A stretch of DNA of 64,000 nucleotides from Candidatus Frackibacter sp. WG13 (GCF_900114655.1 NZ_FOTT01000015.1:1-64000), one strand, 5' to 3'. Shown: positions 18,375-64,000, counted from the stretch's first letter. The notes: generated from the letters alone by a model not told the origin. A program made the numbers and translations.

Positions 18375-18402
18375 GTTATTGTGTTTATAAGTACATATGG
18401 CA

Positions 18403-18546
18403 TTACATCAAGAGAGGTGGAGGGACAGGCCCTATGAAACCCGGCAACCAGCATGAAAGCGTATGGTGCTAAGTCCTGCAAGGAAGATAACTTGAGGGAT
18501 GTAGTAATTGTTAGAACATCTCTCCGCTAAGGAGAGAATTTTTTTA
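18403..18546 (+). promoter_or_regulatory. SAM-I (S-box) riboswitch with terminator
   Basis: The aptamer (18403-18506) shows AGAGAGGTGGAGGGA, CCCTATGAAACCCGGCAACC and the GGTGCTAAGTCCTGC block, all hallmarks of the S-box. P1 is TTACATC pairing with GATGTAG. A terminator (TCTCTCC / GGAGAGA with a seven-T tail, 18519-18546) follows. High SAM should stabilise P1 and shut off metK. Confidence 0.97.
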
Positions 18547-32353: not shown

Positions 32354-32382
32354 GAAGGATTTATGCGTTAATTATAGAATAA
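32354..32382 (+). promoter_or_regulatory. SigH-like promoter of the riboflavin operon
   Basis: GAAGGATTT and ATAGAATAA are placed with exactly 17 nt between AGGA and GAAT. All consensus positions of SigH fit. It would transcribe the FMN riboswitch starting about 25 nt downstream. Confidence 0.55.
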
Positions 32383-32410
32383 TTAGAGTGATAGTTATAA
32401 TTAAATATTA

Positions 32411-32606
32411 AATATTTCGGGATTAGGTGCAATTCCTAACCGGCGGTGATGTCTTTTATTGATTAAGTCCGCGAGCCATTAAGTGGTTGATTTGGTGAGA
32501 ATCCAAAACCGACAGTAGAGTCTGGATGTGAGAGGTATATTTATAGGTGTGTTATGCCTGTGTAATTTTTTTAATTCCCGGAATTATTTCGGGAATTTTT
32601 AATTTT
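32411..32606 (+). promoter_or_regulatory. FMN riboswitch (RFN element) with terminator
   Basis: The aptamer (about 32411-32542) carries ATTAGGTGCAATTCCTAACC, CCGGCGGTGAT, TCCGCGAGCC, GGTGAGAATCC and CCGACAGTAGAGTCTGGATG, the RFN signature. A terminator at 32573-32606 (AATTCCCG / CGGGAATT plus T-runs) follows. FMN binding should terminate transcription before ribD. Confidence 0.97.
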
Positions 32607-52639: not shown

Positions 52640-52668
52640 GAAGGATTTTTTTGCAATTTGTTGAATAA
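52640..52668 (+). promoter_or_regulatory. SigH-like promoter of the DUF1858-fakA operon
   Basis: GAAGGATTT and GTTGAATAA have exactly 17 nt between AGGA and GAAT and fit every consensus position of SigH. They lie 25 nt before the DUF1858 gene. Confidence 0.55.
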
Positions 52669-59759: not shown

Positions 59760-60166
59760 AGGTAAGTGAAATTATAGACGAATTAAGGTTTATGGTCGAG
59801 AATGGAGATAAGATTCCTCTGACTAAAAAGGTCTTGATTGATTCAGATTATGTATTAAATTTAATAGCAGAATTAGAAGAAGAATTACCGGTAGCAATTG
59901 GAGAAGCTGAAGAATTATTGAGTAAGCGGCAAGAAATTTTAGATGACGCGAAGAATCGAGCTGATGAAGAAATTAAAAAGATTATTGCGGAGGTTGATGT
60001 TGTTAAGGAAGCCCAAGAAGTAGCTAATGAAATTAGAGTTGGTGTTAATGAATATGCTGATGAAGTATTAGCAGAAATAGAGAGTGGTTTAGAGAAAAAG
60101 TTAAATGAGATTAGAAAAAATAGAACTGAATTGCAACCAAAAGAACATTTAGAGGAGATTTCCTAA
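59756..60166 (+). CDS. Coiled-coil protein next to coaD (ATPase-subunit-like)
   Basis: This 136-aa, highly charged, mostly helical protein starts with a hydrophobic helix ([15 protein letters not shown]) and is then a long coiled coil (about 40-130). Comparable proteins beside coaD in Clostridia-like genomes are annotated as vacuolar-ATPase H-like or DivIVA-like, without experimental proof. The start overlaps coaD by 4 nt, so it is co-translated. Function unknown. Confidence 0.8.
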
Positions 60167-60196
60167 GACTAGGCTTTTAAAGCTTGGTCTTTTTTG
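60165..60196 (+). terminator. Terminator of the rsmD-coaD operon
   Basis: AAGACTAGGCT / AGCTTGGTCTT (two wobbles) has a short loop and T6 tail and overlaps the preceding stop codon. Confidence 0.85.
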
Positions 60197-60211
60197 TTAT
60201 TTTAAAATAAA

Positions 60212-60302
60212 TAATTAATTTTGAAGGGGCAAACTTGTTGTGAAGCAGGGGCGCAAAGCTATGGGTCTTAAATATAAAGACTGCCAGGCTGCCAAATTAA
60301 TT
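60212..60302 (+). promoter_or_regulatory. c-di-GMP-I (GEMM) riboswitch
   Basis: GGGGCAAAC, a P2 hairpin capped by the GNRA loop GTGA, the GGGGCGCAAAGC junction, and the tetraloop receptor arm TATGGGTCT / GACTGCCAGGCTGCC match the GEMM-I consensus. P1 is formed by TTAATTTTG and CAAATTAA. The base equivalent to G20 appears to be G, favouring c-di-GMP over cGAMP. No canonical terminator follows immediately, so the expression platform is unclear; a GAAAAAAA / TTTTTTTC hairpin lies at 60366-60383. Confidence 0.9.
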
Positions 60303-60361
60303 AGTCTTAGTTTAAAGCAGGTTTAACAACAGCAAGCAAAGTTGAAGCATATGTCTAAAGA

Positions 60362-60419
60362 TGTCGAAAAAAATATTTTTTTCATATAAAAAGAAGGGAA
60401 ATGTTTTTATATGTAGAAC
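60362..60419 (+). promoter_or_regulatory. Possible Spo0A box and SigH-like promoter
   Basis: TGTCGAA at 60362-60368 is an exact Spo0A-box heptamer. GAAGGGAAA and GTAGAACTA lie downstream with 17 nt between AGGG and GAAC, a SigH-like pair with one mismatch in each element. It lies between the riboswitch and the chaperone gene, so there may be a second start site bypassing the riboswitch. Both matches are short. Confidence 0.3.
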
Positions 60420-60548
60420 TATGACATATATCATAAGCAATAAGTGGTAGTTAATTTCATTAGAAATTGACTGGGTAGCATATAAAAGCTGATTTAGCAA
60501 AATAGGTTAAAAGTTAAAATTATAGTTTTTGTTAAGGGGGAGAAGTAG

Positions 60549-61202
60549 ATGACTAGCCAATTTAATGAAGGACTGTGGAAGCGGAGACTACATGTATTGA
60601 ATAAATTAAAAGATATGATGTTGTCGAATAAAGATAGTATTATTCATACTAGAAAAATCAGTAGTTTTCTAACTTCTTTAAGCGAATATGATGATTATCA
60701 CTCTAACGAGTTTTTTGATCAATGCTGGTCGTTGTTAGAGAATAACGTTCAAAATAATGAAAGCTTATGGAAGGAGATTCTTTTCGATTTTAATCGACTT
60801 TTTGTTGGTCCAGATAAGTTACAAGCTCCACCATATGAATCTGTTTATCGAGATGAAGGTTTAATTATGGGACCTTCTACTTTGGAAGTGCGTAATTTTT
60901 ATCAATCTGAAGGCCTTAAACTTGAAAATCAAGGAAAAGAACCAGATGATCATATTGGTATAGAATTAGAGTTTTTAAGTTATATAACTAGGTTAATAAT
61001 TATGTCTCAAGAGAAACAGGCTGAAGAAGAAGTAAATTACTATCAAGAATTATACGAGAAGTTTTTAAATGAACATTTATTACAATGGGGGTTAGAGTTT
61101 GCTGATTTAATAATAGATAAGGCTGAAACTAAGTTTATGAAAGGGGTTGGTCTATATTTAAAGGGGTTTTTAAAAGAAGAGGAGTTACAGGTTAATAGTT
61201 AA
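60549..61202 (+). CDS. TorD/DmsD-family molybdoenzyme chaperone
   Basis: This 217-aa all-helical protein of the TorD/DmsD/NarJ family binds the Tat signal of a molybdoenzyme and aids cofactor insertion. The family core is seen in YESVYRDEGLIMGPSTLEV and the D-D-H-I-G-x-E-L-E-F-L segment. ATG after GGGGGAG. It directly precedes the Tat-exported molybdopterin oxidoreductase, its probable client. Confidence 0.87.
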   Translation: MTSQFNEGLWKRRLHVLNKLKDMMLSNKDSIIHTRKISSFLTSLSEYDDYHSNEFFDQCWSLLENNVQNNESLWKEILFDFNRLFVGPDKLQAPPYESVYRDEGLIMGPSTLEVRNFYQSEGLKLENQGKEPDDHIGIELEFLSYITRLIIMSQEKQAEEEVNYYQELYEKFLNEHLLQWGLEFADLIIDKAETKFMKGVGLYLKGFLKEEELQVNS

Positions 61203-61250
61203 AGTAGTTGTATGTCGGTCAAAGTAAAATAATATAGGAGGTGACTTTAA

Positions 61251-63485
61251 ATGACCGATAAAAATTCTAAAGGATTTAGTAAAGCGTTTTCAAGAAGAAA
61301 CTTTTTAAAAGGAGCTATAGGTGTAGGAGCAGTTGCTGGTCTTAGTTCTTTAATGCCTATTGATTTAGGGAAGAAAACTGTTAAAGCAGGTACAGATTAT
61401 AATTTGGGTTATGATGTTTTTCGTAATGCCTGTCCTCGTAATTGTTATGATACTTGTGGTATTTTGAGTTATGTAAAAGATGGTGTTCTAGAAAAAGTTG
61501 ATGGTGATCCGAAGCATGGCTTTACTCAAGGAAAACTTTGTGTTAAAGGCTATACTTATGCCCATCGAGTTTATAGTCCTGATCGTATAAAATACCCAAT
61601 GATTCAAGAGCCTAGAGGTTCTGGTAATTGGCGAAGAATAAGCTGGGATAAAGCTATGGATATTATAGCGAAGAAGGTTTTAGAGATTAAAGAAGAGTAT
61701 GGTTCTACACTACCTATAGCAATGGATAAATACTCAGGTAACTTTGGTATTTTACATTATGTTGTAGAGGGTATGATGTCTAGTATTGGATATACCACTC
61801 GAAGTTTAGGGACTCCATGTTGGCCAGCGGGTATTGATTCTCAGAATTTTGATATGGGAGCTATATACAATTCAGATCCAGAAGACATGGCTAATTCAGA
61901 TTTGATTATTATCTGGGGAGCTAACCCTGCTTGGTGTTCAATTCATACGATGCCTTTTATTCAAGAAGCTAAAGAAAATGGAGCAAAAGTAGTTGTTATT
62001 GACCCTATCCAAACTCAAACTGCTTCTAAAGCAGATACTTGGTTACAAATAAAGACTGGTACTGATGGAGCTTTAGCATTAGCTATGGCAAAATATATTT
62101 TAGATAATGATTATATAGATAAGAAATATATTGAAGAGAATGTGGTCGGTTTTAAAGAATTTGCTGATTATTTACGAAAAGAAGTTTCAATTAGCTGGGC
62201 CGCAGAAAAGACTGGCTTACCAGAGAAAGTAATTATTCAGTTAGCTAAAGATTATGCTACTACTGCAAAAGCTAATATTTGGGCTGGTTATGGTTTGCAA
62301 CGTCATATTAACGGTGGACAAACCGTTCGAGCAATTGATGCTTTAGGAGCTATTACAGGTAAGATTGGTAAGCCTGGAGCTGGAGTTCAGTATGCGCATT
62401 TAGAAACTTGGGGTTTTAATTACAATGCTATGGTTCAATCTCCACCTTCAGGTTCAGTAGGTGTAGAGAATCCTGATGGAAGTATGTCAAATCGAACAGT
62501 TAATATTAATAATTTTGGTGCTGAAGTACTAGCAGCTGATGACCCACCAATTAAGATGTTATGGATAGCTTGTCGTAATACAATTGATCAGCATCCGGAT
62601 GTTGAAACTTCCAAAAGGGCCTTCGATGCTATGGACTTAGTGGTAACTGTAGATCAATTTATGAATGAGACTGTAAAACATTCAGATATAGTCTTACCTT
62701 GTACAACTCTCTTTGAGCACCCTGATGTAAATGCAAGCTATTGGCATTATTGGGTAAATATTAATGAGCAAGCGATTGATCCTCTCTATGAAGCTAAAAG
62801 TGATTTAGAAATTGCTATGGCTCTGTCACGTAAAATGAATGAGTTGGAACCAGGTTCTTGTACTTTCCCAACTGATATAAGTCAAGAAGAATGGTTAGCT
62901 AAGGAGTTTAACGATGGAATTTATGATATGTTGGGAATTAAAGATTATAATGAATTGAGAAAAGGACCTAAGAAAGCTAATTTACCAACTCAATCTTGGT
63001 CTGATGGTAACTTCCGTACTCCATCAGGTAAGTATGAACTTTATTCTAAGACTGCTACTAAGTATGGTCATCCAGCTATTCCAAGTTATAAGAAAGAAGC
63101 AAAAGCATCGGTGAAGTATCCAGTAAGGCTATTAACTCCTCATTGGAAATATGGTCTTCATTCTCAATTCCAGAATCTAGATTGGATGATGAATATGGAT
63201 TCTGAACCTGAAATAGAGATTCATCCGGATTTAGCTCAGAAGAAGAGAATTAAAGAGGGAGATTTAATTAAACTTTCGAATGAACTAGGGAAGATAAAAG
63301 CAAAGGCTAAATTAACCGGTACTGTACCAAAAGATGCAGTTGTTGCTTATGAAGCTTGGTATAAGGATTCAAATTACTCAGTCAATGATATTGTGAAGGC
63401 AACACCTTCAGATATGGGTGAACATGCTACTGGTAGTCCAGGATTAGCTTTCCACGATAATTTTGTTAAAGTAGAAAAGGTTTAA
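61251..63485 (+). CDS. Tat-exported molybdopterin oxidoreductase (DMSO reductase family)
   Basis: This 744-aa catalytic subunit has a twin-arginine signal (FSRRNFLKG at 13-21), an N-terminal 4Fe-4S site (C61, C65, C69, C97 in CPRNCYDTC and GKLCVKG) and the Mo/W-bis-MGD fold. The candidate metal ligand region is SLGTPCWPAGIDSQ around C190, so Cys rather than the Ser of DMSO reductase proper. The C-terminal MGD-binding domain ends with SPGLAFHDNFVKV. Substrate is unknown: thiosulfate/polysulfide, arsenate, selenate and other anions are all possible. It is followed by a DmsB-like subunit. Confidence 0.92.
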   Translation: MTDKNSKGFSKAFSRRNFLKGAIGVGAVAGLSSLMPIDLGKKTVKAGTDYNLGYDVFRNACPRNCYDTCGILSYVKDGVLEKVDGDPKHGFTQGKLCVKGYTYAHRVYSPDRIKYPMIQEPRGSGNWRRISWDKAMDIIAKKVLEIKEEYGSTLPIAMDKYSGNFGILHYVVEGMMSSIGYTTRSLGTPCWPAGIDSQNFDMGAIYNSDPEDMANSDLIIIWGANPAWCSIHTMPFIQEAKENGAKVVVIDPIQTQTASKADTWLQIKTGTDGALALAMAKYILDNDYIDKKYIEENVVGFKEFADYLRKEVSISWAAEKTGLPEKVIIQLAKDYATTAKANIWAGYGLQRHINGGQTVRAIDALGAITGKIGKPGAGVQYAHLETWGFNYNAMVQSPPSGSVGVENPDGSMSNRTVNINNFGAEVLAADDPPIKMLWIACRNTIDQHPDVETSKRAFDAMDLVVTVDQFMNETVKHSDIVLPCTTLFEHPDVNASYWHYWVNINEQAIDPLYEAKSDLEIAMALSRKMNELEPGSCTFPTDISQEEWLAKEFNDGIYDMLGIKDYNELRKGPKKANLPTQSWSDGNFRTPSGKYELYSKTATKYGHPAIPSYKKEAKASVKYPVRLLTPHWKYGLHSQFQNLDWMMNMDSEPEIEIHPDLAQKKRIKEGDLIKLSNELGKIKAKAKLTGTVPKDAVVAYEAWYKDSNYSVNDIVKATPSDMGEHATGSPGLAFHDNFVKVEKV

Positions 63486-63500
63486 AAGGAGGGATAGAAA

Positions 63501-64000
63501 ATGGCTAAAAAACAGTTAGGTTTTTTGATAAATTCTGAAAGATGTGTAGGTTGTCATGGTTGTGAAATGGCTTGTAAAAATGAGTATCAAATAGATGTTA
63601 AACCGCGTTGGAGGAGAGTATATCTTCTTGAAGAAAAAGAGTATTCAGCTCCAGAAAGAAATCACATGTCTATAGCTTGTAATCATTGTGCTAATCCTGC
63701 ATGTCAAAAGGTATGTCCAGTTGATGCTTATAGTAAAAGGGAAGATGGTATTGTTATGCAGGATCAAGAAAAATGTATTGGTTGCAAGTCTTGTATTAAG
63801 GCTTGTCCTTATAATGCTCCTCAATTTAATGTAAATCTTAAAAAAGTTGAAAAATGTGAGTTATGTTATGAACGCTTAGCTGCTGGGAAAAAACCAGCTT
63901 GTGTAGATAATTGTGTAGTGGGAGCTTTAGATTTGATTGAGTTAAGTGGCTTTCATAAATCAAAAGTTAAAAGGAGTTTGCCAGGGTTCCCAAATCCAAA
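63501..64000 (+). CDS. DmsB/PsrB-like four-cluster ferredoxin subunit (partial)
   Basis: The gene runs off the window after about 166 codons. Four 4Fe-4S motifs are visible: CVGCHGCEMAC, CNHCANPACQKVC, CIGCKSCIKAC and CELCYERL followed by CVDNC. This is the electron-transfer subunit of complex iron-sulfur molybdoenzymes. ATG 63501 follows AAAGGAGGG, 15 nt after the catalytic subunit. A membrane anchor subunit is expected beyond the window. Confidence 0.93.
   Translation, partial: MAKKQLGFLINSERCVGCHGCEMACKNEYQIDVKPRWRRVYLLEEKEYSAPERNHMSIACNHCANPACQKVCPVDAYSKREDGIVMQDQEKCIGCKSCIKACPYNAPQFNVNLKKVEKCELCYERLAAGKKPACVDNCVVGALDLIELSGFHKSKVKRSLPGFPNP

Follow-up and report, generated by a model that had tools for sequence, protein, structure and literature searches.

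An intact c-di-GMP-I aptamer, probably uncoupled from a molybdoenzyme operon with a predicted FNR-type operator in Candidatus Frackibacter sp. WG13

The 64,000-nucleotide (nt) stretch NZ_FOTT01000015.1:1-64000 of Candidatus Frackibacter sp. WG13, referred to as the window and numbered from its first nucleotide, contains close to its end a c-di-GMP-I (GEMM-I) aptamer, the predicted ligand of which is cyclic di-guanosine monophosphate (c-di-GMP), followed by the genes torD, molA and FeSB of a molybdoenzyme operon. An earlier interpretation of the same DNA (the sequence-only reading) had proposed that the operon is controlled by c-di-GMP via this aptamer. We found a genuine, canonical aptamer, which we file as a member of the c-di-GMP-I family without claiming a working switch. 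It is somewhat probable, in our judgment, that this intact aptamer is uncoupled from the reductase operon and that the latter is controlled by an FNR-type regulator. The elements concerned are:

60219..60297, plus strand, with P1 at 60212-60303: c-di-GMP-I (GEMM-I) aptamer (RF03167, 60.9 bits; RF01051, 64.4 bits).
60212..60223, plus strand: 5' arm of P1 (RNAfold of 60210-60305; duplex energy of -5.6 kcal/mol).
60294..60303, plus strand: 3' arm of P1 (same fold and duplex energy).
60304..60548, plus strand: long leader of 245 nt without an intrinsic terminator (terminator script, folding).
60420..60435, plus strand: operator of CRP/FNR geometry, TATGACATATATCATA, the only copy in the window; the same motif is present at nap operons.
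60481..60486, plus strand: -10-like hexamer TATAAA, matching TATAAT in five of six positions and located 46 nt 3' of the operator; a transcript without the aptamer could begin here.
60534..60542, plus strand: Shine-Dalgarno sequence of torD, AAGGGGGAG (from the sequence).

The aptamer was detected in an Rfam scan as a member of the family c-di-GMP-I-GGC (RF03167), with a score above the gathering score of 59 bits, and the parent model c-di-GMP-I (RF01051, gathering score of 35 bits) recovered it in a whole-genome search with an E value of 2.7e-12, together with nine further copies in the same genome. According to RNAfold, P1 consists of 10 A-U pairs (60212-60221 with 60294-60303) and the pair G60223-C60293 with one bulged U, and reaches past the ends of the Rfam model. 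The shared helices show strong covariation across the 35 copies of the order (0 of 500 shuffles were as high), all columns invariant among these copies are retained in the window aptamer, and its GNRA-type tetraloop is GUGA. The aptamer starts about 21 nt 3' of the T-run of the terminator of the preceding operon and ends about 250 nt before the ATG of torD (60549). The sequence-only reading of a good GEMM-I aptamer at this position was thus borne out, and the further genome copies for which it had suggested looking are present.

With the residues numbered as in Vc2 (PMC3764141 and PMC4744006), the ligand contacts G20 (60228), to which the sequence-only reading had drawn attention, A47 (60255) and C92 (60292) are all present. 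The same applies to G21-C46, C22-G45, A47-A49 (60255-60257) and the interhelical C44-G83, with C44 (60252) opposite the bulged G83 (60283), while J1/2 comprises four instead of five nucleotides if G60223 corresponds to G14. Judged by G20, A47 and C92, the aptamer is a predicted binder of c-di-GMP, not of cyclic GMP-AMP (cGAMP). Recognition of cGAMP or another dinucleotide, as by the Geobacter GEMM-Ib riboswitches or the RF03167 variant, would be in line with the variant family as the best Rfam label and with the extracellular respiration genes found under GEMM-Ib riboswitches (PMC6456294). However, A20 is the switch residue of the cGAMP-sensing GEMM-Ib, and its exchange for G turns GEMM-Ib to c-di-GMP selectivity (PMC6456294); because residue 20 of the window aptamer is G, a cGAMP sensor is disfavoured. 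The GGC variant seems to owe its name to a G in place of A47, shown in the RF03167 consensus CGCGAA, whereas the window has CGCAAA and the other copies CGCAAA or similar. The GGC label therefore looks nominal and seems to reflect the short P3, not the ligand pocket. Considering also the score of the parent model, a ligand other than c-di-GMP is hardly credible. Ten GGDEF matches show that c-di-GMP is very likely made in the host, which is of no help in choosing between an uncoupled aptamer and a working switch.

To compare the expression platforms, one script was applied to all copies, which sought an intrinsic terminator within 200 nt 3' of the aptamer. Such a terminator follows all 34 other copies of the order and is missing from the window copy alone; the sequence-only reading was thus right in stating that no plain terminator follows, and this turns out to be unusual. 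Five copies at the class level were scored as lacking one, of which four show a terminator-like hairpin with a T-run by eye and one is located 51 nt before a start codon. A translational switch was rejected as well, because the predicted accessibility of the Shine-Dalgarno sequence is 0.59 with and without the forced aptamer fold. Pairing of the 3' arm of P1 with 60449-60458 as a competitor was dismissed for an energy typical of shuffles (267 of 500), and excess folding of the leader for z values of -0.8 and -1.1 against shuffles. The leader's small upstream open reading frames (MSKDVEKNIFFI, MFLYVEL) show start signals that are weak or missing. The window aptamer is therefore followed by neither of the two ligand-dependent platforms sought, a terminator or control of the Shine-Dalgarno sequence. 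The second, SigH-like promoter suggested by the sequence-only reading as a bypass proved to be at chance level, with 203 equally good matches (up to two mismatches) on the same strand of the 64 kb.

What the sequence-only reading had overlooked is the CRP/FNR-type operator at 60420-60435. It is the single match to TATGA-N6-TCATA in the window, where 0.15 are expected; genome-wide, there are 19 matches vs. 7 for the reversed control. The strict 16-bp palindrome TATGAY-N4-RTCATA occurs nine times in the genome (about 2.4 expected from base composition), with six sites being intergenic and three inside genes. The intergenic sites include those at napDA, an HdrC-like operon behind rex, two PAS-type genes and the torD leader; another one lies at a multihaem cytochrome gene whose divergent neighbour codes for a PocR-domain kinase. 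Perfect copies precede the nap (nitrate reductase) operons of three genera, represented by the own genome and the relatives G003 and G004, and in two of these, the own genome and G004, an FNR-like regulator gene lies beside nap and the motif. The three nap promoters and both PAS-gene promoters have TATAAT or TACAAT starting exactly 22 nt 3' of the site, which is the geometry of class II CRP/FNR promoters with an activator centred near -41.5. Therefore, we read TATGAY-N4-RTCATA as the predicted binding site of the family's FNR-like regulator, and TATGACATATATCATA matches this motif. With a simple pattern, no FNR-like sites were found 5' of homologous operons elsewhere. Sites of this candidate anaerobic regulon, located 5' of nap, HdrC-like and cytochrome genes, are those at L144:4942-4957, L148:2166, L150:1966, L156:2850 and L157:2431.

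The pairing of aptamer and operon was seen only in the window. No aptamer was found near the homologous molybdoenzyme at 38 loci searched with flanks of up to 6 kb, no other riboswitch was detected by Rfam at ten of these loci, and a conserved pairing is absent from the operons of Desulfosporosinus, Deferribacteres, Citrobacter, Campylobacterota and Anaerolineales. Among the aptamer matches listed for 59 genomes of the class, inspected against the molybdoenzyme positions, only the window pair lies close together; in the class, other copies are located in front of flagellar flgB operons, genes for chemotaxis receptors, Spo0E-like genes and the like. An ancestral aptamer was rejected, because the syntenic place (after rsmD, coaD and the gene for a 136-amino acid (aa) protein) contains neither aptamer nor operon in the four nearest relatives (G001-G004). 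A close orthologue is likewise missing from the own order, where the best match shows 36% identity. The aptamer-operon segment is lineage-specific and was plausibly acquired.

Under uncoupling, transcription of torD-molA-FeSB would most likely start at a promoter within the long leader, with a regulator of the CRP/FNR family, presumably the one also serving the nap operon, binding to TATGACATATATCATA; at this site it could also repress. Because the operator is located downstream of the aptamer, its likely promoter would give transcripts without the riboswitch, and these could not be switched by c-di-GMP. RNA started further upstream would include the aptamer but, for want of a terminator or Shine-Dalgarno lock, would hardly respond to the ligand. 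With operator and -10-like hexamer between aptamer and torD, transcript starts are predicted downstream of the aptamer, an outcome which the sequence-only reading itself had named as contrary to its proposal. The proposed c-di-GMP control also finds no counterpart in a terminator, a Shine-Dalgarno effect, a P1 competitor or a conserved pairing. Several observations weigh against uncoupling. The core of the aptamer retains all its residues, which points to selection or a recent origin. The window operator lacks a -10 hexamer at 22 nt (the best at 20-25 nt is TTTCAT, four of six), and the closest good one, TATAAA, shows a looser, class I-like spacing; therefore, the exact start is uncertain. Moreover, the operator was spotted only after inspecting the torD leader itself, and its strict motif is expected by chance and found inside genes as often as given above. 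Finally, the GEMM-I leader Vc1 of V. cholerae has no visible terminator or anti-Shine-Dalgarno sequence and yet responds to c-di-GMP (PMC4744006).

This precedent, together with the intact core and the long P1, speaks for a c-di-GMP riboswitch that works through an unusual platform, in which RNA from just upstream would fold into the aptamer and the ligand would alter the elongation, stability or translation of the torD-molA-FeSB RNA or the access of Rho to it. Reductase output would then follow c-di-GMP, possibly on top of FNR-type control. The operon is the sole set of sense genes behind the aptamer, and the ten GGDEF matches and ten aptamer copies indicate a live c-di-GMP network. As no terminator, Shine-Dalgarno coupling or competing pairing above chance was found, the pairing with the operon is not conserved, and no clear sigma-70 promoter was found 5' of the aptamer (37 of 100 shuffles reach the best score, although most other copies share this lack by the same crude test), we regard a working switch as possible but rather unlikely. 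It is doubtful as well that a riboswitch without terminator or Shine-Dalgarno lock and an FNR-type regulator jointly set the output of the molybdoenzyme operon, so that a single leader would connect motile/sessile switching with electron-acceptor choice. The aptamer may also represent a stand-alone short RNA or orphan unit without a cis target, ended by Rho or processing. At least two of the ten genome copies, on contigs C17 and C31, have no downstream sense gene, and 5 of 12 class I copies of C. difficile lack a downstream gene (PMC6200980), but the C17 and C31 units keep strong terminators, whereas no defined 3' end is evident for the window copy, which makes an orphan unit quite improbable. 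The two units themselves (C17:12207-12290, or L013:7208-7291; C31:44461-44537, or L014:8462-8538) face convergent genes, coding for a secreted multihaem CXXCH cytochrome (L013:6606-7112) and a 144-aa protein whose gene neighbours a GGDEF gene (L014), and are candidates for antisense-acting or stand-alone RNAs.

The neighbouring genes and the upstream terminator are:

60165..60191, plus strand: intrinsic terminator ending the upstream rsmD-coaD-136 aa operon (stem of 12 pairs, loop of 3 nt, T-run).
60549..61202, plus strand: torD, TorD/DmsD-like chaperone of 217 aa (PF02613, 6.6e-32).
61251..63485, plus strand: molA, DmsA/PsrA-like molybdopterin oxidoreductase of 744 aa with a twin-arginine translocation (TAT) signal (PF00384, PF04879, PF01568).
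63501..64000, plus strand, ending at contig position 64070: FeSB, DmsB-like 4Fe-4S protein (TIGR02951, 165 bits; PF13247).

These matches confirm the three gene identities given by the sequence-only reading. MolA misses the curated NCBIfam cut-offs for dmsA_ynfE (318.8 of 777.7), PhsA (235.4 of 694) and TorA (183.6 of 909), and its closest solved chain is 2vpw, a thiosulfate/polysulfide reductase. The torD-molA-FeSB trio is kept in Desulfosporosinus (about 60% identity of molA), Desulfuromonadales, Deferribacterota, Anaerolineales, Campylobacterota and Enterobacterales. A gene for a DmsC anchor follows the trio in Desulfosporosinus, Desulfuromusa and Citrobacter; none adjoins it here. Past the window, a ferredoxin-like gene (64373-65527) and a gene for a PAS histidine kinase (65609-67696) follow on the contig and continue the operon. 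The N-terminal region of about 300 residues of this kinase has matches at several homologous loci (38-41% in Anaerolineales, 23-26% elsewhere), so the trio seems to carry two-component control along with it; kinases sharing this region lie beside the trio in other phyla (L044-L081, e.g., L058:2713-4596 and L061:2505-4529). At the contig end, 5 kb past the kinase gene, we noted by eye the helix-turn-helix start of a probable IS30-type transposase (C4:72936-73154, L009).

Four terminator-bearing aptamers of the genome are located directly 5' of short genes for Spo0E-like phosphatases (PF09388), namely at C18:283847 and 284437, C2:20478 and C2:43260 (L012, L016, L017), which suggests that the sporulation phosphorelay may be under c-di-GMP control; a search of the literature for a link between Spo0E, riboswitches and c-di-GMP turned up only a general review. 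Ordinary aptamers of SAM and FMN riboswitches are present in the window at 18402-18505 and 32409-32541. Perfect SigH-like promoter matches occur at 32354-32382 (GAAGGATTT-N11-ATAGAATAA), just 5' of the FMN riboswitch, and at 52640-52668 (GAAGGATTT-N11-GTTGAATAA).

If the coupling were real, a terminal reductase would be under a riboswitch for c-di-GMP, not cGAMP; such control was not seen to be described in the few papers found to tie c-di-GMP riboswitches to respiration or molybdopterin. If the aptamer is uncoupled, as we think more likely, it serves as a warning that an intact aptamer near a gene is no evidence of control, and comparing the expression platforms across the copies of one genome is a cheap test of coupling. 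The conserved TATGAY-N4-RTCATA motif additionally provides a testable candidate anaerobic regulon in a little-studied family of halophiles.

Compared to known systems, the window aptamer shares with Vc2 and the c-di-GMP-I family (RF01051) the core of G20, G21-C46, A47-A49, C44-G83 and C92, the GNRA-type tetraloop and three helices, but has no expression platform, a J1/2 apparently shorter by one nucleotide, and a respiratory molybdoenzyme operon behind it instead of motility or surface genes. The apparent lack of a terminator or anti-Shine-Dalgarno sequence is common to Vc1 in front of gbpA (PMC4744006), whose c-di-GMP response was shown with a reporter, whereas the window copy is known from its sequence and is separated from its operon by a regulator site. 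The Geobacter GEMM-Ib riboswitches are likewise GEMM-type aptamers tied to genes for anaerobic electron acceptors (PMC6456294), but they have A20, sense cGAMP, carry terminators, and act on genes for cytochromes, pili and polysaccharides. The operon itself resembles the DmsABC and PsrABC operons with TorD in its TorD-like chaperone, its catalytic subunit with a TAT signal and its four-cluster Fe-S subunit, and differs from them in falling below all curated cut-offs (DmsA, PhsA, TorA) and in lacking an adjoining DmsC gene. The palindrome upstream of nap, with an adjacent FNR-like gene and a -10 hexamer at 22 nt, corresponds to the class II promoters of CRP/FNR regulators, whereas in the torD leader no -10 hexamer is recognisable at 22 nt and TATAAA follows at 46 nt.

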